64,000 bases of DNA. It comes from an uncultured Pelagibacteraceae bacterium. Lineage in GTDB: Bacteria; Pseudomonadota; Alphaproteobacteria; Pelagibacterales; Pelagibacteraceae. The notes under the pieces are model-generated. The model was not told the origin of the DNA. It saw only the letters and a list, made by a program, of their open reading frames with translations, and did no database searches. Where the stretch lies: positions 1-64,000 of the forward strand of contig CACKAJ010000003.1 of assembly GCA_902598125.1 (NCBI GenBank), in the 5' to 3' direction. Below are positions 3,223 through 14,271 of this stretch, piece by piece. Positions within the stretch are counted from its first letter, which is position 1; every line of letters begins with the position of its first letter. Made by a program: the position numbers and the translations under genes.

Positions 3223-4076
3223 TGGTTGAGAAAAAGAAATCAGGCTATTGGTTAACTCACCTTGGTTTAATCCTAGGGGTTTTATTTATATTCTTTCCGG
3301 TTTGGCTAACGTTTGTTGCATCCACTGTAACACAAGATGCAATTATTTACCCTCCTTTACCAATGTTACCAGGCACAGAATTCTTTGAGAATTATGCGAA
3401 TGCATTATTTAGAGGTTCACCAGAAGGATACGGAGCCAAAGTTCCTGTTATAAAAATGATGATGAACTCTGCAATCATGGCAATCGGAATTACAGTTGGA
3501 AAAATTATTATTTCATTATTATCAGCTTTTGCATTTGTCTATTTTAGATTTCCATTCAGAAATTTATGTTTCTGGTTAATCTTTATTACTCTGATGCTTC
3601 CAGTTGAAGTAAGAATAGTTCCAACTTATGAAGTAGTTGCGAATTTAAATTTATTAAATTCTTACACCGGATTAATCTTTCCGTTAATTGCATCAGCGAC
3701 AGCAACTTTTTTATTTAGACAATTTTTTATGACCATACCTGATGAAATGGTTGAAGCAGCTAGAATGGACGGATGTAGTCCGATGCGTTTCTTTTTTGAT
3801 ATACTAGTTCCAATAAGCAAAACTAACATTGCAGCGTTATTTGTTATTTTATTTATTTTTGGTTGGAACCAATATTTATGGCCACTATTAATGACAACCG
3901 ATCCTGACATGAGAACTATTGTAATGGCAATTGACTCAATGATACCTACAGGGGATGATTATGCACACTGGCCAACGGTTATGGCAACAGCAATGTTAGC
4001 TATGGTTCCACCAGTCATAGTAGTGATAAGTATGCAAAAGTTTTTTGTTAAAGGTTTATTAGAAAGCGATAAATAA
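3222..4076 (+). CDS. ugpE: Glycerol-3-phosphate ABC importer permease UgpE
   Basis: A 284-residue MalG-type permease with six hydrophobic segments and an EAA loop near residues 172-192 (EMVEAARMDGCSPMRF). It pairs with UgpA in the inner membrane to carry G3P or glycerophosphodiesters into the cytoplasm. The start codon overlaps the ugpA stop by one base, and the stop (TAATG) overlaps the ugpC start, so the three inner-membrane and ATPase genes form one tightly coupled unit. Length and motif order match the family; nothing unusual was seen. Confidence 0.92.
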   Translation: MVEKKKSGYWLTHLGLILGVLFIFFPVWLTFVASTVTQDAIIYPPLPMLPGTEFFENYANALFRGSPEGYGAKVPVIKMMMNSAIMAIGITVGKIIISLLSAFAFVYFRFPFRNLCFWLIFITLMLPVEVRIVPTYEVVANLNLLNSYTGLIFPLIASATATFLFRQFFMTIPDEMVEAARMDGCSPMRFFFDILVPISKTNIAALFVILFIFGWNQYLWPLLMTTDPDMRTIVMAIDSMIPTGDDYAHWPTVMATAMLAMVPPVIVVISMQKFFVKGLLESDK

Positions 4077-5131
4077 TGTCTCAAATTAGTTTACAAAATT
4101 TAAAAAAATCTTTTGGAAAAACTCAGGTTATTCATGATCTGAGTATTGATGTAAAAGATGGTGAACTGATTGTAATAGTTGGACCCTCAGGTTGCGGAAA
4201 ATCAACATTATTGAGAATGGTTGCGGGGCTAGAAGATGCTAATGAAGGAAATATTTTAATTGATAATAAAAAAGTAAATGAGCTTGAGCCTATGGAGAGA
4301 AATATTGCCATGGTATTTCAAAATTACGCTCTTTATCCTCACATGACTGTATTTGGTAACATGGCTTATGGTTTAAAGATTGCGAAAGTGCCAAAAGAAG
4401 AAATTGAGTCTAGAGTTCAAAAAGCAGCTGAAATTTTAGAGCTTGGAGAATTACTAGAGAGAAAACCTAATCAATTATCAGGAGGACAAAGACAAAGAGT
4501 TGCTATGGGAAGAGCTATTGTAAGAAATCCTGTAGCTTTTTTATTTGATGAGCCATTATCAAATCTAGATGCCAAATTAAGAGTTCAAATGAGATTAGAG
4601 ATTAAAAAACTTCAAACTCAATTAAAGACAACCTCTTTATATGTAACGCATGATCAAGTCGAAGCAATGACATTAGCAGATCGTATGATTGTGATGAATG
4701 AAGGTAATGTAGAACATATTGGAACGCCTTTAGAAGTTTATACGAAGCCCAAAACTTTGTTTACGGCTCAATTTATCGGAAGCCCAGCGATGAATATTTT
4801 AAAAGGGAACTGCGAAAATAATAAAGTGAGTTTTGCAAACAAATCTTCGCTTTCAATTAATTCAAAATTTAACGGGCCCGTTAATGTAGGCATGCGACCT
4901 GAAGATTTTGAATTAGATCAAAATGGTCCAATCAAGTTAAAAGTTGAACTTGTAGAGTTGATCGGAGCTAATACACTTATTCATGGTAAACTTGAAAATA
5001 GTAATGAAATTTTAGTTGCAAGTATCTCAGGTGTTGTTAAAGAAGATACTATTGGAAAAAACATAAATCTTTCCATTCAAAATGACAAACTACACCTGTT
5101 TGATACTAATACTGATTTGAGGATTAATTGA
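4076..5131 (+). CDS. ugpC: Glycerol-3-phosphate ABC importer ATPase UgpC
   Basis: A 351-residue MalK/UgpC-type ATPase. Walker A is GPSGCGKST (36-44), the ABC signature LSGGQRQRVAMGRA begins near 134, Walker B is FLFDEP near 156, and the switch histidine sits in YVTHDQVEAMTLADR. The C-terminal third is the TOBE regulatory domain (GMRPEDFEL). It powers the UgpAE importer. Specificity is inferred from the binding protein and the downstream ugpQ-type gene, since ATPases of this group are interchangeable between sugar importers. The last codons overlap the TTG start of the phosphodiesterase gene. Confidence 0.9.
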   Translation: MSQISLQNLKKSFGKTQVIHDLSIDVKDGELIVIVGPSGCGKSTLLRMVAGLEDANEGNILIDNKKVNELEPMERNIAMVFQNYALYPHMTVFGNMAYGLKIAKVPKEEIESRVQKAAEILELGELLERKPNQLSGGQRQRVAMGRAIVRNPVAFLFDEPLSNLDAKLRVQMRLEIKKLQTQLKTTSLYVTHDQVEAMTLADRMIVMNEGNVEHIGTPLEVYTKPKTLFTAQFIGSPAMNILKGNCENNKVSFANKSSLSINSKFNGPVNVGMRPEDFELDQNGPIKLKVELVELIGANTLIHGKLENSNEILVASISGVVKEDTIGKNINLSIQNDKLHLFDTNTDLRIN

Positions 5132-6060
5132 TCAATCCATTTTTAACGAAACCTAACTACATAAGAATATACGGCCATAGAGGAGCTAGAGGTGATATTG
5201 TTGAAAACTCAATCTCTGGTTTTAAATATACTTTTGATCTTGGTATTAAAGCAGTTGAATTTGATGTTGTAATTTCAAAAGACAATATTCCAACGATATT
5301 TCATGACTACAGATTAAATCCTGATTTAGTTAAAGATACCTCAGGGAACTGGATCACAGATAAAAGCATGAAATTAGTAGAACTGACTTATGATGAAATA
5401 AGTAAGTATAGTATTGGAAGTATAAAACCCGAAACAAAGTACGCAAAAAGATTTAAAAATCAAAAACCTATTACAGGTGAAAAAATACCAAAATTAACTG
5501 ATTTCTTTAAATTAGTGACGGAAGATAAATATAAAGATGTTTTTTTAAATTTAGAAATTAAATCAACTCCCACACAAGAAAACGTAACACCTGACCCAGA
5601 AAAAATGGTTTCTTTGATCCTTAAAGATATTAAAGATTTTAAACTTGAGGACAGAACTTTAATCACTTCTTATGATTTTAGAATTCTTTACGCCCTTAAA
5701 AAACAAAATCCAAATATTTTAAGAGGATTTATTACCCTGCAACAAGGTCTTTCAATCACTAAAAAGAATATTTATGAAAATTCTCCGTGGATGGTTAAAA
5801 ATTATCCAATGGAAGAATTATTTTTGCTTCCTAATATAATTAAATCATTAGAAGGGCATGTGTGGAGTGCTTTCTACCGAGATATTACAAAACAAAATGT
5901 AGAATTAGCACATAAACATGGTCTAGCTACGTGTGTTTGGACAGTGAATAGAGAACAGGATATTATTCGAATGATTGAGTACGGTGTAGATGGAATTATA
6001 ACTGACTATCCAAAAAAAGTTCAAGAAATTTGTAAAGCAAAAAATATTTCTTGGTTTTAA
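5128..6060 (+). CDS. ugpQ: Cytoplasmic glycerophosphodiester phosphodiesterase
   Basis: A 310-residue GDPD-family TIM-barrel enzyme. Motifs are HRGARGDIVENSISGF near residue 17 (catalytic His plus the metal-binding Glu), EFDVVISKDNIPTIFHD near 44, LNLEIKS in the middle, and WTVNREQDIIRMIEYGVDGIITDYP at the C-terminus. There is no signal peptide, so it acts in the cytoplasm, splitting imported glycerophosphodiesters into G3P and an alcohol. The start is a TTG inside the ugpC stop region (TTGA overlap); no in-frame ATG would keep the N-terminus. It completes a ugpBAECQ operon for scavenging phosphorus from lipid head groups. Confidence 0.9.
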   Translation: MINPFLTKPNYIRIYGHRGARGDIVENSISGFKYTFDLGIKAVEFDVVISKDNIPTIFHDYRLNPDLVKDTSGNWITDKSMKLVELTYDEISKYSIGSIKPETKYAKRFKNQKPITGEKIPKLTDFFKLVTEDKYKDVFLNLEIKSTPTQENVTPDPEKMVSLILKDIKDFKLEDRTLITSYDFRILYALKKQNPNILRGFITLQQGLSITKKNIYENSPWMVKNYPMEELFLLPNIIKSLEGHVWSAFYRDITKQNVELAHKHGLATCVWTVNREQDIIRMIEYGVDGIITDYPKKVQEICKAKNISWF

Positions 6061-6103: not shown

Positions 6104-6241
6104 ATGGCAAAAAAAAAATATCAAAGAAATTGGTTAGAAAGAAAATTGGATGAATATAATCATACAATGGAACTTATTAGGACTATTCTACCTTTTTTAA
6201 TCCTTTTGCTACAAATTTACATACTTACTAAACTCATTTAA
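6104..6241 (+). CDS. Small single-helix membrane protein (45 residues), unknown function
   Basis: A 45-codon ORF begins ATG GCA AAA and ends TAA at 6241. The protein has a strongly basic start (MAKKKYQRNWLERK), an amphipathic middle, and one C-terminal membrane helix (ILPFLILLLQIYILTKL). It sits between ugpQ and another small membrane protein gene just ahead of phoR, all on one strand. The compositional switch from charged to hydrophobic supports a real gene, but no family was recognised. It may be a small regulator or accessory of the neighbouring transport or sensor proteins; that is only positional inference. Confidence 0.5.
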   Translation: MAKKKYQRNWLERKLDEYNHTMELIRTILPFLILLLQIYILTKLI

Positions 6242-6272
6242 CACCTCGTTAAATATCAGTTATAATCTCAAA

Positions 6273-6515
6273 ATGACTTTATTGTTTTTATCACTAGCAG
6301 GTATCATTGCTATTATTGTTATTCTTGTATCGGCAAAATTTATTAAAGCAGGGTTTGATGCTAGAGGTGAGGTTAAAGAGGAACAAAGAGAGGAGAAACT
6401 CAAGAAAGAGGATGAAGATATTTTAGATGAATTAAAAAGAAAAAATTTGTCCGAAGAAGATTTAAAAGATCTTTACGAAAAAATCCAAAATAATAAAAAA
6501 GATAAAGATGAATGA
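6273..6515 (+). CDS. Small membrane-anchored protein with charged coiled-coil tail, in front of phoR
   Basis: An 80-residue protein. Residues 3-25 form one membrane helix (LLFLSLAGIIAIIVILVSAKFI), and the remainder is highly charged and helical (EVKEEQREEKLKKEDEDILDELK). It overlaps phoR by 8 bases in a different frame. The PhoR-like kinase that follows has no membrane segment, whereas enterobacterial PhoR has membrane helices plus a charged region before its PAS domain. This gene could therefore encode the anchor half of a split sensor. It ends just after a run of six A's (6495-6500), a place where a +1 shift would join the two frames. Confidence 0.65.
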   Translation: MTLLFLSLAGIIAIIVILVSAKFIKAGFDARGEVKEEQREEKLKKEDEDILDELKRKNLSEEDLKDLYEKIQNNKKDKDE

Positions 6516-7539
6516 ATTATTAAAGGAAATAAAATTTTTAGAAGATTTACCAGATCAAGTTTTAATAATAGATAAATTTAAATCAATAGGTTACGCTAAT
6601 AAAGCAGCAAAAAATCATTTTGGATCAAGCATAGTAAATCAAAATATCTCAAGTATTGTAAGAGACCCAAGTTTGTTAAGTCAAATCGATGATTCTTTAG
6701 AAAATAATAAAAGTGGAATTTTAGATATAGAAATTAAAAAACCGAATTTTCAATTTTTTAAAGTAAGTGTGATGCCAGGACCAAGTAATTTGCTTGAAGA
6801 CAGTAACTCGGTAATAATCTTTTTTAAAGATTTGACAGATATTATAAAAGTTCAAAAATTAAAATCTGATTTTGTTGCAAATGTCTCTCATGAACTTAGA
6901 ACCCCACTTCAAAGTATTAAGTTAGGTCTCGAAACTATAAATAATGGGCATGCAGCTAAAGATCTCGAAAGTCAAAAAAAAATATTACCTGTGGTACTTC
7001 AACAAACATCAAGAATGGAAAATATTGTCAATGATCTTTTATCACTATCTAGAATCGAACTTCAGGAACATATTAGACCAAATGAAAAAGTAAATTTAAA
7101 TGATATTATCTCACACTCTATTGAGCTTCATCAAGAAATTTTAAAGAAAAACAATATTGAATGTCAATTTGAGCGAGAGTCGAAAAATGTAAAAATTAAT
7201 GGTGACAGAAATCGCTTAATAGAAGTTTTTAACAATCTTATAGATAATGGAATAAAATATAGTGAAAAAAATAAAAAAATTACAATCACTACTAAATCAG
7301 AAAATAAAAATTTTTTAGTAACGATTAAAGATCAGGGTATTGGCATATCAAAAGAGAATATACCACAAGTCACAGAAAGGTTTTTTAGAGTTGATCCAGC
7401 TAAAAGCAAAGAAGTTGGTGGAACTGGCTTAGGTTTAGCAATTGTAAAGCACATAGTTAATCAGCATAGAGCTGAAATGACCATTTCAAGTGAGATCAAT
7501 AAAGGCACTGAAATATCCCTAAATTTTCCAACTATTTAA
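6508..7539 (+). CDS. phoR: Phosphate-regulon sensor histidine kinase, without its own membrane domain
   Basis: A 343-residue kinase. A PAS-like domain occupies residues 12-115 (DLPDQVLIIDKFKSIGYAN), the HisKA helix has the phospho-acceptor His128 in NVSHELRTPLQSIK, and the HATPase domain has the N-box NNLIDNGIKYS, DQGIGIS and GGTGLGLAIVKHI. Located directly upstream of pstSCAB-phoU-phoB, it should phosphorylate PhoB when Pi is low. No transmembrane segment is present, unlike E. coli PhoR; the preceding 80-residue membrane protein overlaps it by 8 bases and may supply the anchor. The start ATG 6508 fits the beginning of the PAS domain; the ribosome-binding site is weak. Confidence 0.88.
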   Translation: MNELLKEIKFLEDLPDQVLIIDKFKSIGYANKAAKNHFGSSIVNQNISSIVRDPSLLSQIDDSLENNKSGILDIEIKKPNFQFFKVSVMPGPSNLLEDSNSVIIFFKDLTDIIKVQKLKSDFVANVSHELRTPLQSIKLGLETINNGHAAKDLESQKKILPVVLQQTSRMENIVNDLLSLSRIELQEHIRPNEKVNLNDIISHSIELHQEILKKNNIECQFERESKNVKINGDRNRLIEVFNNLIDNGIKYSEKNKKITITTKSENKNFLVTIKDQGIGISKENIPQVTERFFRVDPAKSKEVGGTGLGLAIVKHIVNQHRAEMTISSEINKGTEISLNFPTI

Positions 7540-7591: not shown

Positions 7592-7633
7592 AAATCAATA
7601 ACCTTGAAAGTTTAAGTCTCATTTATGTTTATA

Positions 7634-7640
7634 AAGGAGA
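7634..7640 (+). promoter_or_regulatory. Ribosome-binding site that fixes the pstS start
   Basis: AAGGAGA ends 5 bases before ATG 7646. A second in-frame ATG at 7625 lies upstream of this site, so the site chooses 7646; the protein from 7646 also begins with a proper signal peptide. Confidence 0.85.
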
Positions 7641-7645
7641 CAAAT

Positions 7646-8662
7646 ATGAAAATTATAAAAAACATAATAGCAGTTATTGCTATTCTTTCTTTTGCTTCAT
7701 ACGCGCAAGCAAGAGATCAAATTAAAATTGTAGGTTCTTCAACAGTTTATCCATATGCAACAGTAGTTGCTGAAAAATTTGGAAAACAAGGTAGTTTTAA
7801 AACTCCAGTAATTGAAAGTACAGGTACTGGTGGTGGAATGAAATTATTTTGCGCTGGCATTGGAGTAAATCACCCAGATATCACTAACGCTTCAAGAGCA
7901 ATCAAATCGAAAGAAAAGGCATTATGTGAAAAAAATGGTGTAAAAGATATAATTGAAGTAGTAGTAGGAAATGATGGTATAACATTTTCTCACTCAGTAA
8001 AATCACCTGACGCAAATTTCACAAAAGAGCAACTTTGGAGAGCTTTAGCAGCTAAAGTAGATGTTAATGGTAAATTAGTAGAAAACCCATATAAAAAATG
8101 GAGTGATATAGATGCAAGTTTACCTAGCAAAAAAATAGAAATCTTAATTGCGCCCCCAACATCTGGAACGAGAGATGCTTGGAATTCATTAGTAATGAAT
8201 AAAGGGTGTTCAAAAGCAGCTAAATCACTATTTGGTGATAAAGCTAAAAAAGAATGCGCAAAAATGAGAGAAGATGGTTACGCAGTTGAAGCAGGTGAAA
8301 ACGATACTCTAATCGTACAAAAACTTGCAGCTAATCCTGACGCTTACGGTTTCTTTGGCTATAGTTATTATTTAGCTAACAAAGATAAAATAAAAGCAGC
8401 AGCTATAAATGGAGTAAAACCTTCATTAGAAGGAATTCAAGATTATTCTTATCCAATAGCAAGACCATTATTCTTTTATGCAAAGAAAGCTCATGTTGGA
8501 GTAGTCCCTGGTCTAAAAGAATTTTTAGATGCATTCACTTCAAAAAAAGCTATGGGATCTAGAGGTTACCTAACTGATATTGGATTAGTGCCACTAGCTA
8601 GTGACAAATATAAAGTTACTAGAACTGCAGCGAAAGACTTAGTTACAATTGCCCTCAAGTAA
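7646..8662 (+). CDS. pstS: Periplasmic phosphate-binding protein
   Basis: A 338-residue PstS-type protein when started at ATG 7646. The signal peptide covers about residues 1-22 (basic MKIIK, hydrophobic core, ASYAQA). The mature protein begins RDQIKIVGSSTVYPYA, the phosphate-binding P-loop-like motif of this family, followed by STGTGGGMKLFC and, later, PPTSGTRDAWNSL. It captures inorganic phosphate in the periplasm for PstCAB. It is preceded by phased Pho-box-like repeats and followed by a strong intrinsic terminator, so it can be expressed well above the rest of the operon. In SAR11 cells PstS is known to be abundant under low Pi. Confidence 0.95.
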   Translation: MKIIKNIIAVIAILSFASYAQARDQIKIVGSSTVYPYATVVAEKFGKQGSFKTPVIESTGTGGGMKLFCAGIGVNHPDITNASRAIKSKEKALCEKNGVKDIIEVVVGNDGITFSHSVKSPDANFTKEQLWRALAAKVDVNGKLVENPYKKWSDIDASLPSKKIEILIAPPTSGTRDAWNSLVMNKGCSKAAKSLFGDKAKKECAKMREDGYAVEAGENDTLIVQKLAANPDAYGFFGYSYYLANKDKIKAAAINGVKPSLEGIQDYSYPIARPLFFYAKKAHVGVVPGLKEFLDAFTSKKAMGSRGYLTDIGLVPLASDKYKVTRTAAKDLVTIALK

Positions 8663-8768: not shown

Positions 8769-10151
8769 ATGATGAATTCTTTAATTGCGGGAGTAATTTT
8801 AATTCTCTGCCTTTCTAGTTATTTTTTTGGTAGATCTGAAGCTCGTAAGTTAGTTACTCAAAATATTAAATTAAAAGCCCTTCCTGCTTATTATGGTTAT
8901 TATTTATCTCTATGGTGTGGCTTACCGGCCTTAATTATTTTTGGATGTTGGTCACTGTTTGAACCCACAATAATCAAAGTTTTGATACTTAATAATTTTC
9001 CTCAAATTGAGTCTAAAGACTTATTTTATGAGCAAACATTATCATTTTTTAATGGAAATTTTTCAGGTGAAATAACAAATGAAATTAAAGCAGCTTCAAT
9101 TAAGTACTCATCAATTAATATTATTGCCCAAAATTCAAAAATTGTAATTATAGCTGCTGCGTTAATTGGCTCTCTAACTTTTGCATACAGAAAAATTCAA
9201 AAAAACAATAAAGCCAGAGATGATGTTGAGATAATACTAAAAATTTTATTATTTACCTCCTCTTTAGTAGCAATTTTAACAACAGTTGGGATAATTGTAT
9301 CTCTGTTATTTGAAAGCATAAAGTTTTTTTCTACGATAAACATATTTGAATTTATATTTGGTACCTCTTGGAGCCCCCAACGTGCTTTCGTAAGAGATGC
9401 ATCTGCTATAACTCCTGAAGAACTTTTAGAGCTTCAAGATGCTTTTGGTTCTGTGCCTTTATTTGCTGGTACTGCATTCATCGCTTTAATTGCTATGTGT
9501 GTTGCCGTACCAATAGGTCTATTTTCTGGAATATATTTAGCTGAATATGCTTCAACGAAAGCAAGAAAGTATTCTAAACCAATTATTGAAATCTTAGCTG
9601 GTATACCAACTGTGGTTTACGGTTTTTTTGCTGCTTTAACTGTTGGACCTTTCTTTAGAACGCTTGGTGAGAGTTTGGGTCTTACTGTTTCATCAGAAAG
9701 TGCACTAGCAGCTGGATTAATCATGGGAGTCATGATTATTCCTTACATATCTTCTTTATCTGATGATGTTATAAATTCAGTTCCGCAATCTTTAAGAGAG
9801 GGCTCTTACGCGATTGGTGCTACAAAATCTGAAACTATTAAAAAAGTTGTAATACCAGCAGCTTTACCTGGAATAATAGGATCTATTCTTTTAGCGGTCT
9901 CTAGAGCTATTGGAGAAACTATGATCGTAGTGATGGCTGCAGGTTTAGCTGCAAACCTAACTATAAATCCTCTTGAGTCCACTACAACCATCACAACTCA
10001 AATTGTTATGATATTGGTAGGAGACCAAGAATTTGATAGCCCTAAAACACAAGCTGCGTTCGCTTTAGGATTAACATTATTTATCGCAACACTAATTTTA
10101 AATTACATCGCATTAAGAGTTGTTAAAAAATATAGAGAAAAATATGACTAA
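8769..10151 (+). CDS. pstC: Phosphate ABC importer permease PstC
   Basis: A 460-residue permease, longer than E. coli PstC (319) because of an N-terminal extension with extra membrane segments and a loop (residues 1-160), a form common in alphaproteobacteria. The C-terminal core carries the permease fold (VPIGLFSGIYLAEYA), the EAA-type loop SLREGSYAIGATKSETIKKVVIPAALPGI, and SRAIGETMIV. It forms the channel with PstA. Two adjacent ATGs (8769 and 8772) are possible starts. A terminator and a candidate PhoB-type promoter lie just upstream. It overlaps pstA by 8 bases. Confidence 0.93.
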   Translation: MMNSLIAGVILILCLSSYFFGRSEARKLVTQNIKLKALPAYYGYYLSLWCGLPALIIFGCWSLFEPTIIKVLILNNFPQIESKDLFYEQTLSFFNGNFSGEITNEIKAASIKYSSINIIAQNSKIVIIAAALIGSLTFAYRKIQKNNKARDDVEIILKILLFTSSLVAILTTVGIIVSLLFESIKFFSTINIFEFIFGTSWSPQRAFVRDASAITPEELLELQDAFGSVPLFAGTAFIALIAMCVAVPIGLFSGIYLAEYASTKARKYSKPIIEILAGIPTVVYGFFAALTVGPFFRTLGESLGLTVSSESALAAGLIMGVMIIPYISSLSDDVINSVPQSLREGSYAIGATKSETIKKVVIPAALPGIIGSILLAVSRAIGETMIVVMAAGLAANLTINPLESTTTITTQIVMILVGDQEFDSPKTQAAFALGLTLFIATLILNYIALRVVKKYREKYD

Positions 10152-11406
10152 AGAACAACGATTAAAAAAAAGATATAGAGCAGAAAAGAGATTTAAGATG
10201 TACGGCTTAATCTCTGTCAGCTTAGCAGTTATCTTTGTATTAATTCTTGTTCAAAATATTTTTTCTAAGGGAAGTTCAGCTTTCAGCAGAACAATGATAG
10301 AGGTGGAAGTAAACTACGACTCGTCTCTTCTAGAATTAGATAGTCCAATTAATCAAAATTCTCTCAAAGATGCAGATTTCTATGATTTAGCGGTGGAAAG
10401 CCTTTTAAAAATATATCCTGCAAAAGACTCTAAAGAAGAAAGGCAGATTTTAAGATTGTTTAGTCCTGATTTTGAGTTTGAGATTAAAGATTTTTTAATT
10501 AAAAACCCAAATAAAATTGATCAAGTTGTTCCAGTAAAAATCACAGCCTCTGATGATATCGATCAACTCAATAAAGGAAATTTTCCTCGAGATTTACCGG
10601 AGGACCGAAGACGAGTTAGTAATTATCAATTAAATATTTATGACAATTTGATTGAAAAAGAAAAAATTAACAAAAAGTTTAATAATTATCTTTTTACTAA
10701 AGGAGACTCTAGAGATCCTGAGTTAGCTGGTATTGGAGGTTCATTAATGGGATCATTCTTCACAATTATAATTTGTTTAGTCTTGTCTTTTCCAATAGCA
10801 ATAATGGCCTCAATTTATCTGGAAGAATTTGCTCCAAAAAATAAGATAACCGACTTTATTGAAATAAATATTAATAATTTAGCAGCAGTGCCTTCGATAG
10901 TTTATGGTCTTTTAGGTTTGGGAATATTATTAAGTGTAATGGAATTTCCTAGGTCTACCCCATTAGTTGCAGGAATTACATTATCTCTAATGACTTTACC
11001 GAGAATAATAATTCCGTGCAGAGCATCATTAAAAGCAGTTCCACCTTCGATAAGAGAAGCAGCGTTATCAGTTGGAGCTTCAAAATTTCAGACAGTGTTT
11101 CATCACGTTGTTCCACTAGCCATGCCAGGAACTTTATCTGGAACAATAATTGGTCTAGCTCAAGCTTTAGGAGAGACCGCTCCTTTAATTCTTATCGGGA
11201 TGGTCGCTTTTGTAGTTGATATTCCAAGTTCACCGGTTGATCCATCAGCATCTTTACCAGTACAGGTTTATTTATGGTCTGAACAAGCTGAGAGAGGATT
11301 TGTGGAAAAAACATCGGCAACAATTATGATGTTACTTGGCTTTCTTATTGTAATGAATTTCATTGCTGTTTATCTTAGGCAAAAATTTGAAAAAAAATGG
11401 AATTAA
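10144..11406 (+). CDS. pstA: Phosphate ABC importer permease PstA
   Basis: About 420 residues from ATG 10144 ([17 protein letters not shown]). An in-frame TTG at 10120 would add eight residues inside pstC and is less likely. The first membrane helix is followed by a large periplasmic insert (residues 50-180) of the type seen in alphaproteobacterial PstA. The permease core has [21 protein letters not shown], the EAA loop [28 protein letters not shown], and [10 protein letters not shown]. It pairs with PstC in the inner membrane for high-affinity Pi import. It overlaps pstC by 8 bases and pstB by 10. Confidence 0.93.
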
Positions 11407-12170
11407 ATAATTCAAAAATAAAAATAAAAGCAAAAAACTTAAATGTTTTCTACGGAAAAAAACAAGCCTTATTTGATATTAATTTAGATATTAATCAAAA
11501 AGAAGTAACAGCATTAATTGGACCATCAGGATGTGGTAAATCAACATTTATAAGATGCATTAATAGAATGAATGATGTGATTGATATTTGTAAGGTAGAA
11601 GGTTCTGTTGAAATAGACGGAGCTGAAATTAATGAAAAAAATGTTGATGTAGTTACATTAAGAGAAAAAGTGGGAATGGTTTTTCAGAAACCAAATCCTT
11701 TTCCAAAGAGTATTTATGATAATATTGCTTATGGCCCAATTATTCATGGCGCTGCTGAGAACAAAGATCAAATGGATAACATAGTTGAGACAAGTTTAAA
11801 AAAAGCAGCTCTATGGGATGAAGTGAAGGATAGATTAAATGAGCCAGGCACAAGTTTATCAGGAGGCCAGCAACAAAGACTTTGCATTGCAAGAGCGCTA
11901 TCGGTCAATCCAGAAGTGATTTTGATGGATGAACCATGCTCTGCTTTAGATCCAATTGCTACAGCAAAAATAGAAGAGTTAATTGACGATTTAAAAAAAA
12001 GTTACACAATTGTAATTGTTACGCACTCAATGGCTCAAGCAGTAAGAGTTTCTCAAAAAACAGGTTTTTTTCATCTTGGAAAAATTATAGAAGTAGATTC
12101 TACGGAAAAAATATTTAAGAATCCGGCTAATAAAATGACGCAAGACTATATAACTGGGAGATTTGGATAA
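11397..12170 (+). CDS. pstB: Phosphate ABC importer ATPase PstB
   Basis: A 257-residue ATPase of the usual PstB length. It shows Walker [10 protein letters not shown] near residue 42, the PstB-specific INRMND after it, Q-loop [18 protein letters not shown], signature [15 protein letters not shown] and Walker [16 protein letters not shown]. It hydrolyses ATP to drive Pi import through PstCA and takes part in Pi sensing with PhoU and PhoR. The start lies inside the last codons of pstA (10-base overlap), and its stop codon directly abuts the phoU start codon. Confidence 0.96.
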
Positions 12171-12866
12171 ATGTCTGGAACAGGCCATACAGTAAAATCA
12201 TACGAAGAGGAGATGCAAAATTTAAATGACAATCTTGTTATGATGGGAAGTTTGACAGAAAGTCAAATGGCAGATGCAATGGCTGCTGTAATTAAAGTTG
12301 ATAAAGACTCAGTTGATAAAATTGTAAAAAATGATGGAAAAATAAATGAATTGAGATCTGTAATTGATAATCAAATTACTACTGTTTTAGTTAAAAGAGC
12401 TCCAATGGCAGTAGACTTAAGGATAACTATTTCAACAATGAAAATATCACACGATTTAGAAAGAATAGGAGATCTTGCTAAGAGTGTTGCTAAAAAGGTA
12501 AAACCTTTACCAGTGGATTTGCCTGACGAACTCATAGGAAGTTTAAGAAGGCTAGGTGATTTAGTTCAAAAACAATTAAAAGATGCTCTAGACGCTTATC
12601 TTAATAAATCAAAAGATAAGGCAATTGAAATTTGGAAAAAAGATGAACAAGTAGATGATTTGACTAATTTAGCAATGAATGAAGTTGCAACTTATTTACA
12701 AAAAGACAAAAAAAATTTAGAAATGGCAACTCATTTATTATTTGTAACAAAAAACATAGAAAGAGCTGGAGACCATATAACCAACATCGCAGAGTCTCTT
12801 TATTATTTAATCGAAGGTGAATATCTTGAGGGAGCAAGACCAAAAGGCAAACCTATAGAAAGTTAA
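12171..12866 (+). CDS. phoU: Phosphate signalling complex protein PhoU
   Basis: A 231-residue, all-helical protein with two PhoU repeats. The conserved segments are SHDLERIGDLAKSVAK near residue 95 and KNIERAGDHITNIAESLYYLIEG near 197, which carry the E/DxxxD metal-binding motif of the family. PhoU links the Pst importer to PhoR and keeps the Pho regulon off when phosphate is plentiful. The gene begins immediately after the pstB stop and its own stop overlaps the phoB start by one base, so all three are co-translated. Length matches the family. Confidence 0.95.
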   Translation: MSGTGHTVKSYEEEMQNLNDNLVMMGSLTESQMADAMAAVIKVDKDSVDKIVKNDGKINELRSVIDNQITTVLVKRAPMAVDLRITISTMKISHDLERIGDLAKSVAKKVKPLPVDLPDELIGSLRRLGDLVQKQLKDALDAYLNKSKDKAIEIWKKDEQVDDLTNLAMNEVATYLQKDKKNLEMATHLLFVTKNIERAGDHITNIAESLYYLIEGEYLEGARPKGKPIES

Positions 12867-13549
12867 TGAGCGCCCATATTTTTGTTGTAGAAGACGAAAA
12901 ACCAATTTTAACTCTACTTACATACAATCTTGAGAAAGAAGGATACAAAGTATCATCTAGCTCAAACGGAGAAGAAGCCCTTTCATTAATTAAAGAAAAA
13001 AAACCAGACCTTGTTTTATTAGATTGGATGCTCCCTGATTTATCAGGAATAAAAATTTGCCAATATTTAAAACAAGATGAAAAAGTAAAAAATATACCCA
13101 TTATTATGCTTACGGCAAAAGGTGAAGAAGAAGATAAAGTCAAAGGACTTAATACTGGTGCCGAAGATTACATGACTAAGCCTTTCAGTTTTCCAGAGCT
13201 GTTAGCAAGAATAAAATCCCTTTTAAAAAGAGTTAAACCAAATATTGTTAGTGAAGAGGCTACTTATTTAGATCTTAAAATAGATAGAGAGTCTATGAAA
13301 GTATTTAGGAAAGAAAAAGAAATTTTTTTAGGTCCTAAAGAATATAAATTGCTTGATTTTTTAATTAAGCAACCAAAAAGAGTTTATTCCAGAGAGCAGT
13401 TGTTAGAATATGTTTGGGGAGACGATATCAATGTAGAGTCTAGAACAGTGGATGTTCATATTACCAGATTAAGGCAATCAATAAATATCGAAGGGGCTAA
13501 ACCTTTAATTAGAACTGTTCGTTCAGCAGGGTATTCTTTAGAAAATTAA
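12866..13549 (+). CDS. phoB: Phosphate-regulon response regulator PhoB
   Basis: A 227-residue OmpR/PhoB-type regulator. The receiver domain has the acidic pair EDE at residues 9-11, the phosphorylation site in DLVLLDWMLPDLSG (Asp about 53), and the conserved Thr and Lys in MLTAKGEEED and YMTKPFSF. The C-terminal winged helix has FLGPKEYKLLDFLI and the recognition region SRTVDVHITRLRQSI. It should bind the phased repeats before pstS and pstC. It is the last gene of the Pho block; its end overlaps the convergent small membrane gene by 12 bases. Confidence 0.95.
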   Translation: MSAHIFVVEDEKPILTLLTYNLEKEGYKVSSSSNGEEALSLIKEKKPDLVLLDWMLPDLSGIKICQYLKQDEKVKNIPIIMLTAKGEEEDKVKGLNTGAEDYMTKPFSFPELLARIKSLLKRVKPNIVSEEATYLDLKIDRESMKVFRKEKEIFLGPKEYKLLDFLIKQPKRVYSREQLLEYVWGDDINVESRTVDVHITRLRQSINIEGAKPLIRTVRSAGYSLEN

Positions 13550-13773: not shown

Positions 13774-14271
13774 TTAGCCTGAGGCTTTAACTTTTTTCTC
13801 AATAAATTCTGGAATGTCATCTTCTTTATCAAGAACCTCTTCTTTTGTACCTTTAGGTTGAAATGCATATAACACGTGTAATTTACAATACGGGAATTCC
13901 CCTTCAGGTTTTCTTCCGCAGAAATAAAATTTTTCTTCATTAGGGTGTCCTATAGGCCATTTACAGGTTTGATCAGTTAACTCCTCTAAAGACTTAGGGT
14001 TTTCTGGTTCAAAATTTTTATCAAGTAAAATTGATTGAAATTTAGCTTTTCTTGAAATAGGGGCAGATCCTCTCTTTATAGGTCTATTTACCGATGTCGA
14101 TGATTGACTAGATTGTTTAGATGGAGCTCTCGCCTCTAAGTTTAATCTATGAGCTTTACCAATTACTGCGTTTCGTGTGGTGTCACCTAAAGCTTCGGCT
14201 ATCTGACTTGCGGTATGGCCTTTAGACCAGAGTTCTTTTAATTTAGCGACTTTTTCTTCTGTCCAACTCAT
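13774..14271 (-). CDS. gcrA: GcrA-family cell-cycle transcription regulator
   Basis: A 165-residue GcrA homologue. The N-terminal helix-turn-helix (MSWTEEKVAKLKELWSKGHTAS, then TRNAVIGKAHRLNL) is the GcrA DNA-binding domain. The C-terminal part has the conserved CKWPIG and FCGR...YCKLH cysteine and histidine cluster that binds RNA polymerase sigma-70 in Caulobacter. In that organism GcrA acts at promoters carrying CcrM-methylated GANTC sites. The linker (residues 48-95) is poorly conserved. It is transcribed away from the ABC-2 permease and argDF genes and is probably co-transcribed with the following small membrane gene. Confidence 0.9.
   Translation of the reverse strand: MSWTEEKVAKLKELWSKGHTASQIAEALGDTTRNAVIGKAHRLNLEARAPSKQSSQSSTSVNRPIKRGSAPISRKAKFQSILLDKNFEPENPKSLEELTDQTCKWPIGHPNEEKFYFCGRKPEGEFPYCKLHVLYAFQPKGTKEEVLDKEDDIPEFIEKKVKASG

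Follow-up and report, generated by a model that had tools for sequence, protein, structure and literature searches.

A PhoR-like histidine kinase that has no membrane helix raises the question of what, if anything, holds it at the membrane. In the stretch of 64 kb analysed here (the window), which comes from a SAR11-type genome (1.02 Mb in 10 contigs), such a kinase lies directly behind s80, a small gene encoding a single membrane helix. The initial annotation saw in s80 the missing front of a PhoR and offered three readings of the pair: a genuine two-part sensor, one protein joined by a frameshift, or a single gene broken by an indel in the sequence.

The kinase, s80 and their neighbourhood

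Both ORFs and their 8-base overlap are where they had been placed (Table 1). The domain assignment is sound for HisKA (Pfam, E 6e-19) and HATPase_c (E 2e-27), as is the lack of a membrane helix: 19-residue hydropathy peaks at 2.96 in s80 versus 0.82 in the kinase, and by this measure no N-terminal membrane part was found within the kinase protein itself. The PAS domain is less secure, being represented by weak matches to PAS_8 (E 0.004) and PAS_9 (E 0.005), each below its cut-off. Among the families listed for the kinase the best is TIGR02966 (PhoR, NCBIfam) with 292.3 bits, below the cut-off of 334.2. The kinase is in an operon with pst, phoU and phoB genes; PstC, PstA, PstB, PhoU and PhoB score above their cut-offs and PstS below. 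AlphaFold models of s80 (mean pLDDT 57) and of a fused PhoR from a relative (L225; mean pLDDT 68, anchor below 50) are given no weight for mechanism.

A promoter-like sequence precedes s80, and a TATAAT-like box is found at the equivalent place in several other alleles. Promoter-like matches in the region are at chance level (20 against 21 expected), so the promoter of s80 is to be read as a consensus match. No E. coli-type pho box was found near the locus, and the three matches in the whole window are what chance would give. For the neighbouring genes we use ugpA, ugpE, ugpQ, plcP, agt, dgk and W1 as provisional names or handles; proteins labelled ugpQ, plcP and agt gave no NCBIfam match at E 1e-30. 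The gcrA and SMR genes were identified by Pfam match.

Between ugpQ and s80 lies a second small gene, s45, which is present in 33 of 37 named loci bearing ugpQ at 91-100% identity and is better conserved than s80. It gave no Pfam match at E≤1, and in G023 a pair of adjacent copies is present.

Table 1. Features of the s80-kinase locus and its flanks (positions in the window)
Feature	Positions	Strand	Remarks
UgpC neighbour	4076-5131		NCBIfam
ugpQ-like gene	5128-6060	+	left flank common to many PiT-type genomes
s45	6104-6241	+	45-aa one-helix small protein
promoter-like TTAACA-17-TATAAT	6238-6266	+	ends 6 bases 5′ of the s80 ATG
s80	6273-6515	+	80-aa ORF with one membrane helix; borders the phosphate cassette on its left
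s80 residues 1-44	6273-6404	+	membrane helix and basic segment; common to fused PhoRs and TM-SHOCT relatives
s80 residues 48-80	6414-6512	+	predicted helical hairpin (low confidence); in aligned stand-alone and split forms, missing from aligned fused forms
AAAAAAG run	6495-6501	+	not conserved in the split relatives; nothing points to a frameshift site
overlap ATGAATGA	6508-6515	+	8 bases; kinase start and s80 stop
PhoR-like histidine kinase	6508-7539	+	343-aa ORF, no membrane helix
PAS-like region	6535-6840	+	weak Pfam matches below cut-off
HisKA domain	6862-7059	+	Pfam
HATPase_c domain	7201-7530	+	Pfam
pstS	7625-8662	+	TIGR02136, below cut-off
pstC	8769-10151	+	NCBIfam
pstA	10120-11406	+	NCBIfam
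pstB	11397-12170	+	NCBIfam
phoU	12171-12866	+	NCBIfam
phoB	12866-13549	+	NCBIfam
gcrA	13774-14271	-	right border of the exchanged segment; PF07750

The junction is that of two genes

The kinase frame had been described as open back through the AAAAAAG run, so that a +1 shift would join it to s80. Both points were confirmed: the frame is open for 14 codons upstream, to position 6466, across the run. Together with the fused forms found in relatives (see below), this open frame is what speaks for a programmed +1 frameshift, or some other recoding, that fuses s80 and the kinase into one sensor. However, comparison of 15 junctions (the window, 12 split named contigs, and those of L204 and G107) revealed no conserved slippery site with a shift, as in a programmed frameshift gene pair. 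The window shares an A6G run with L160, L162, L165 and L180 (5/15); the run is A9G in L169, L172, L173 and L179 (4/15) and A8 in L159 (1/15); it is missing at L207, L208, L219 and L204 (4/15). In G107 the run is A6 and joining needs a +2 shift, rather than the +1 needed at the other 14. Because the run is variable or missing, and one relative would need a different shift, there is no conserved frameshift. Nor is the sequence suited to -1 slippage: known -1 slippery sites use the phase X XXY YYZ, whereas the phase of the run is AAA AAA G. The heptamer AAAAAAG is also at background level in the window (30% GC), with 62 copies on the + strand and 58 on the - strand, and each of the 15 kinases has an ATG or TTG start of its own. 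We consider recoding highly improbable, and the earlier suggestion of a joining frameshift is not upheld.

The remaining reading of a broken gene would make the layout a sequencing or assembly indel, or the decaying pseudogene of a formerly fused phoR. Fused orthologues do exist, but 12 named SAR11 contigs share the layout, at kinase identities of 68 to 99%, so it is not a sequencing indel. In the split loci s80 has a length of 79-80 aa, save in G107 (87 aa), and its conserved hairpin is missing from the aligned fused forms. Moreover, the two split kinases in alignment A2 retain the invariant columns of what we take to be the H, N and G boxes. The chance that the locus is an artefact or a pseudogene is close to negligible. 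On comparative grounds, then, s80 and the kinase are two genuine genes in the window.

Split, fused and stand-alone forms of s80

Whether other SAR11 genomes carry a single fused ORF at this locus was determined for a genus set of 66 genomes that are at least 80% complete, the window's included. A match to the kinase is found in 41 of them, to the anchor (the membrane half of s80) in 54, to pstS in 42 and to a 322-aa PiT-like permease gene in 14. The split arrangement of the window occurs in six. In 34 the membrane half of s80 and the kinase form one ORF (that of G106 is cut by a contig end), and one, G023, has two kinases under divergent membrane fronts. In a further 14 genomes s80 is present without a match to PhoR or PstS; the PiT-like permease is present in exactly those 14 and is convergent with s80 in the loci drawn. 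The remaining 11 match neither anchor nor kinase, and two of these (G006, G010) have pstS. Since the genomes are incomplete a single absence is weak evidence, which cannot be said of the overall pattern.

Named genomes were sorted likewise. From 112 relatives found, 80 loci were retained; those nearly identical to the window's are filed as uncultured Pelagibacteraceae. A script called the 80 loci as s80 alone with the PiT-like gene (39), fused (28), split (12) and alone (1). By eye, the locus called alone (L162) is a split one cut by a contig end and is counted among our 12 split contigs; L204, called split, is left out of the 12 because it is a truncated PhoR joined to DNA-polymerase-like sequence. 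These 12 contigs and the six split genomes of the genus set may overlap. Two other calls need qualification: L297 (called soluble) has a helix of its own, and G030 (L075, called ownTM) has an s80-like anchor. Where s80 matches relatives with fused kinases, the matches lie inside open frames of 399-422 aa. The alignments establish that these other lineages have an in-frame fusion in which the kinase follows approximately the first 45-58 residues of the s80 membrane segment and takes the place of the C-terminal hairpin, and that in further lineages s80 is alone with a convergent PiT-like permease.

Several loci have features of their own. L204 (355-2367) has the start of PhoR in frame with what is presumably a DNA-polymerase-like protein; the MAG is filed as Rhodobacteraceae and the contig is probably chimeric. 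Most fused-type loci drawn have a 203-aa protein between PhoR and pstS (L062, 3385-3996) that gave no Pfam match at E 0.001; the cassette of the window shows no counterpart. G092, which we count as fused, holds a stand-alone s80 copy as well: there (L285, 4097-9471), and in L223, an s80-like gene with a split-type tail is followed by a repeated piece of W1, lipid genes and the fused PhoR. This layout looks like a half-erased earlier exchange.

The 322-aa gene is called PiT-like by its motifs, and is presumably such a permease. Its match to PHO4 has an E of only 0.33 and there is no NCBIfam match at E≤0.1, so the label rests on those motifs together with a remark on pitA in the accessible part of PMC12636525, whose pitA we infer to be this gene.

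Anchor and kinase have separate histories

In genus g9 one anchor stands alone with the PiT-like gene in G327, is fused to one type of kinase in G165, G325 and G269, and to another in G284, G419 and G224 (anchor types, and kinase types K1-K7, are labels coined in this analysis). The fused G284 and the PiT-type G327 are 96-100% alike over the first 135 nt of the anchor and 50-57% on either side. Conversely, G284 and G036 are 93-94% alike in the kinase past nt 300 and 53-67% in the anchor; the split pair G078 and L219 behaves likewise, with 91-95% past nt 300 and 53-69% in the anchor.

The anchor tree rejects grouping of the K4, K2, split or fused rows (AU p < 1e-45 each), a test that used 135 nt of 19 anchors, carried a long-branch warning and took groups named after the data had been seen. 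In the kinase tree (32 rows) the five split kinases form one clade with support 100/99; the sister of this clade is without resolution, so the order of events is not fixed. Taken together, the alignments and trees demonstrate different histories for the membrane segment (the first ~135 bases of s80) and the kinase.

The sequence around s80 indicates where alleles part. G015 (split) and G026 (PiT) are 93-98% alike from -900 to nt 180, with 97% over the upstream interval from -300 to 0, and then fall to 71% and 49%. Just upstream of s80 the window matches L184 at 98 and 93% and L161 at 85 and 88%. Fused alleles differ in this respect: upstream of the anchor, G014 and G026 are 49-60% alike.

s80 appears older than the phosphate cassette

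Homologues of s80 are under purifying selection, with median dN/dS from 0.013 to 0.111 over three sets: the stand-alone medians are 0.078 (27 unique) and 0.013 (9 unique), with 38 of the 39 named PiT loci represented, and the split set (14 unique) included L204 and the stand-alone copy of L223. In kinase-free genomes this selection includes the tail.

A relative of s80 is found in the related genus g6. Ten g6 loci were fetched, and in nine of them it has the W1 gene on one side and gcrA directly after it, no phosphate cassette intervening (L277, located elsewhere, was left out of the alignment; many further g6 matches are weak). All nine aligned relatives match SHOCT (PF09851), and their membrane half matches that of s80, residues 1-44 (hhalign 97.4%, E 1e-11). 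In eight of these nine genomes PhoR is elsewhere, under a different short membrane helix; no PhoR was found in the ninth, G126. That a TM-SHOCT relative occupies the matching site without a phosphate cassette makes s80 look like a host gene for a small membrane protein that has long been there, older than and separate from the cassette.

A SHOCT domain in s80 itself was considered and rejected: 0 of 11 members match at E≤0.05, with none in the window's own genome at E≤10. The similarity of the s80 tail to the g6 tails is weak (hhalign score 17.5, reached by 1 of 100 column shuffles).

These observations bear on the possibility that an ancestral fused PhoR underwent fission to give the split form, the stand-alone s80 of PiT genomes being a leftover anchor. 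Most kinase rows are indeed membrane-fused (86/116 by script, some genomes being counted twice under two ids), and the kinase tree does not resolve at its base. Against fission, however, the g6 relative has a SHOCT tail at the matching site while PhoR is elsewhere under a different helix in 8/9, and stand-alone s80 keeps a selected C-terminus that is missing from the aligned fused forms. We regard fission as a poor prospect. The original view of s80 as the lost front of PhoR is thus half right: s80 is homologous to the anchor fused to like kinases in relatives, but it also stands alone under purifying selection where no PhoR or PstS matches, and its g6 relative has no phosphate cassette beside it.

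A probable exchange of phosphate gene sets at s80

We think it probable that SAR11 genomes exchange phosphate gene sets at s80, a gene of the host, and that PhoR sits beside it, as in the window, or was fused onto it. This judgement is on the locus and leaves the tether aside. The phosphate cassettes would be swapped by homologous recombination, on the left within s80 or close to it and on the right in the flank, and an arriving cassette would then supply its own 3′ end of s80: either an in-frame kinase or the hairpin tail with a separate gene behind it. Where split and PiT alleles are compared, the left break would be inside s80, the tail travelling with the kinase or the permease. A one-sided boundary misfits the fused alleles, since their upstream DNA differs too (G014/G026, above); there the anchor would be a short island of shared sequence inside the exchanged DNA. 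Split and PiT alleles have, between conserved flanks, different gene sets at a single site, as a replacement island does; the left flank of fused alleles differs. The start of the window's kinase overlaps the stop of s80, which makes coupled translation likely, and in this lineage the kinase may be made from the s80 message via this stop-start overlap.

A bolder version makes s80 a shared membrane adaptor for phosphate uptake, with a tail supplied by the cassette, that is paired with the PiT-like permease or with a separate or fused PhoR, the kinase being rebuilt at each island replacement by a change of whatever is joined to the constant anchor. We hold this to be rather unlikely.

Tethered or soluble kinase

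Does s80 do anything for the kinase? Near PstSCAB-PhoU it could tether the kinase, made as a separate protein, to the membrane, as the non-covalent counterpart of the fusion in relatives. The proposal is attractive because the kinase is fused to a membrane helix or lies directly behind s80 in 41 of 41 genus genomes with a kinase match, and because E. coli PhoU contacts PhoR via the cytoplasmic PAS domain of PhoR (PMC4423584, accessible part); we put it slightly short of an even chance. Adjacency alone could also produce fusions without physical partnership.

Alternatively, s80 may lend only a promoter and translation to whichever gene follows, the kinase being soluble and meeting PhoU or PstB in the cytosol, and the fusions being accidents of position. 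A soluble PhoR, 58% identical, sits in the pst-phoUB operon of G113, a complete genome of the sister genus with no s80 match anywhere at E≤0.01, and in the family f2 loci that were read the PhoRs have neither a membrane helix nor an s80 match; there, at least, PhoR can do without a membrane tether. Split and PiT alleles, where compared, have similar DNA immediately upstream of s80 (85-98%), s80 is conserved without any kinase, and E. coli PhoR freed of its membrane part passes phosphate to PhoB in vitro (PMC5458449, accessible part). On the other hand, all family f1 PhoRs examined, save that of G113, either have a membrane helix or follow s80 immediately, and the existence of several unrelated kinds of membrane front suggests that anchoring is favoured. 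Moreover, the fused alleles lack common upstream DNA (49-60%, G014/G026), so capture of a promoter cannot explain all cases. The soluble reading might well be true, though we stop just below calling it a balanced bet.

These loci have further features of note. In G113 (L304, 10062-12147) the soluble PhoR is divergent from a PiT-like permease and pstSCAB-phoUB is also there, so that in that genus the PiT-like gene and Pst do not exclude each other. Three family f2 loci (L093, 2933-3655; L089, 3828-4544; L077, 3272-6905) have a TMEM164-family protein beside PhoR, and in L077 polyphosphate kinase and Ppx/GppA genes lie directly upstream.

If the exchange reading, with s80 as the point of junction, is true, it shows how a bacterium re-plugs its phosphate sensor while trading phosphate islands. 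The locus would be a natural experiment in one of the ocean's most abundant bacterial groups, with related kinases that do or do not have a covalent anchor and one anchor with three kinds of partner, through which the role of the PhoR membrane part can be tested directly. A partner is also proposed for a family of small proteins that had otherwise gone unnoticed.

Comparison with known systems

The kinase resembles PhoR as defined by TIGR02966 in its HisKA and HATPase domains, PAS-like front and operon with pstSCAB-phoU-phoB; it differs in having no membrane helix of its own and in scoring 292 bits against a cut-off of 334. TM-SHOCT proteins (PF09851) include the g6 relatives at the matching site (9/9), but s80 does not match the model. 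Small proteins that act on sensor kinases are described, in the parts of the papers available, for DUF1127 on PhoR (PMC12501420) and MgrB on PhoQ (PMC8404706). The likeness, that of a small protein that may act on a sensor kinase, is drawn without a claim of homology, and the Pfam listing for s80 of the window at E≤1 does not include DUF1127.

In offshore Pelagibacteraceae, pstSCAB-phoU/phoB/phoR is reported from 55% of genomes and the remainder are said to use pitA (PMC12636525); the accessible part of that paper does not place pst and pitA at one site, and the small membrane gene is unmentioned there. Within the literature searched, in so far as its text was available, we found no mention of a split, s80-fused or interchangeable-anchor PhoR in SAR11. 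Closest to our proposal are replacement islands. As far as the available portions of these sources go, phosphate islands that vary at one place have been described in HIMB59 (PMC10734472), SAR11 phosphate genes lie within a flexible island (PMC7318151), and replacement flexible genomic islands are known in general (PMC4033161). The three have in common with the present locus one place, alternative phosphate sets and homologous recombination as the proposed means. In contrast to what those portions mention, the exchange proposed here cuts into a small gene and, in some lineages, yields a chimeric sensor kinase. Exchange of phosphate islands was thus already known; relative to the literature as searched, the split or interchangeable anchor of PhoR is new.
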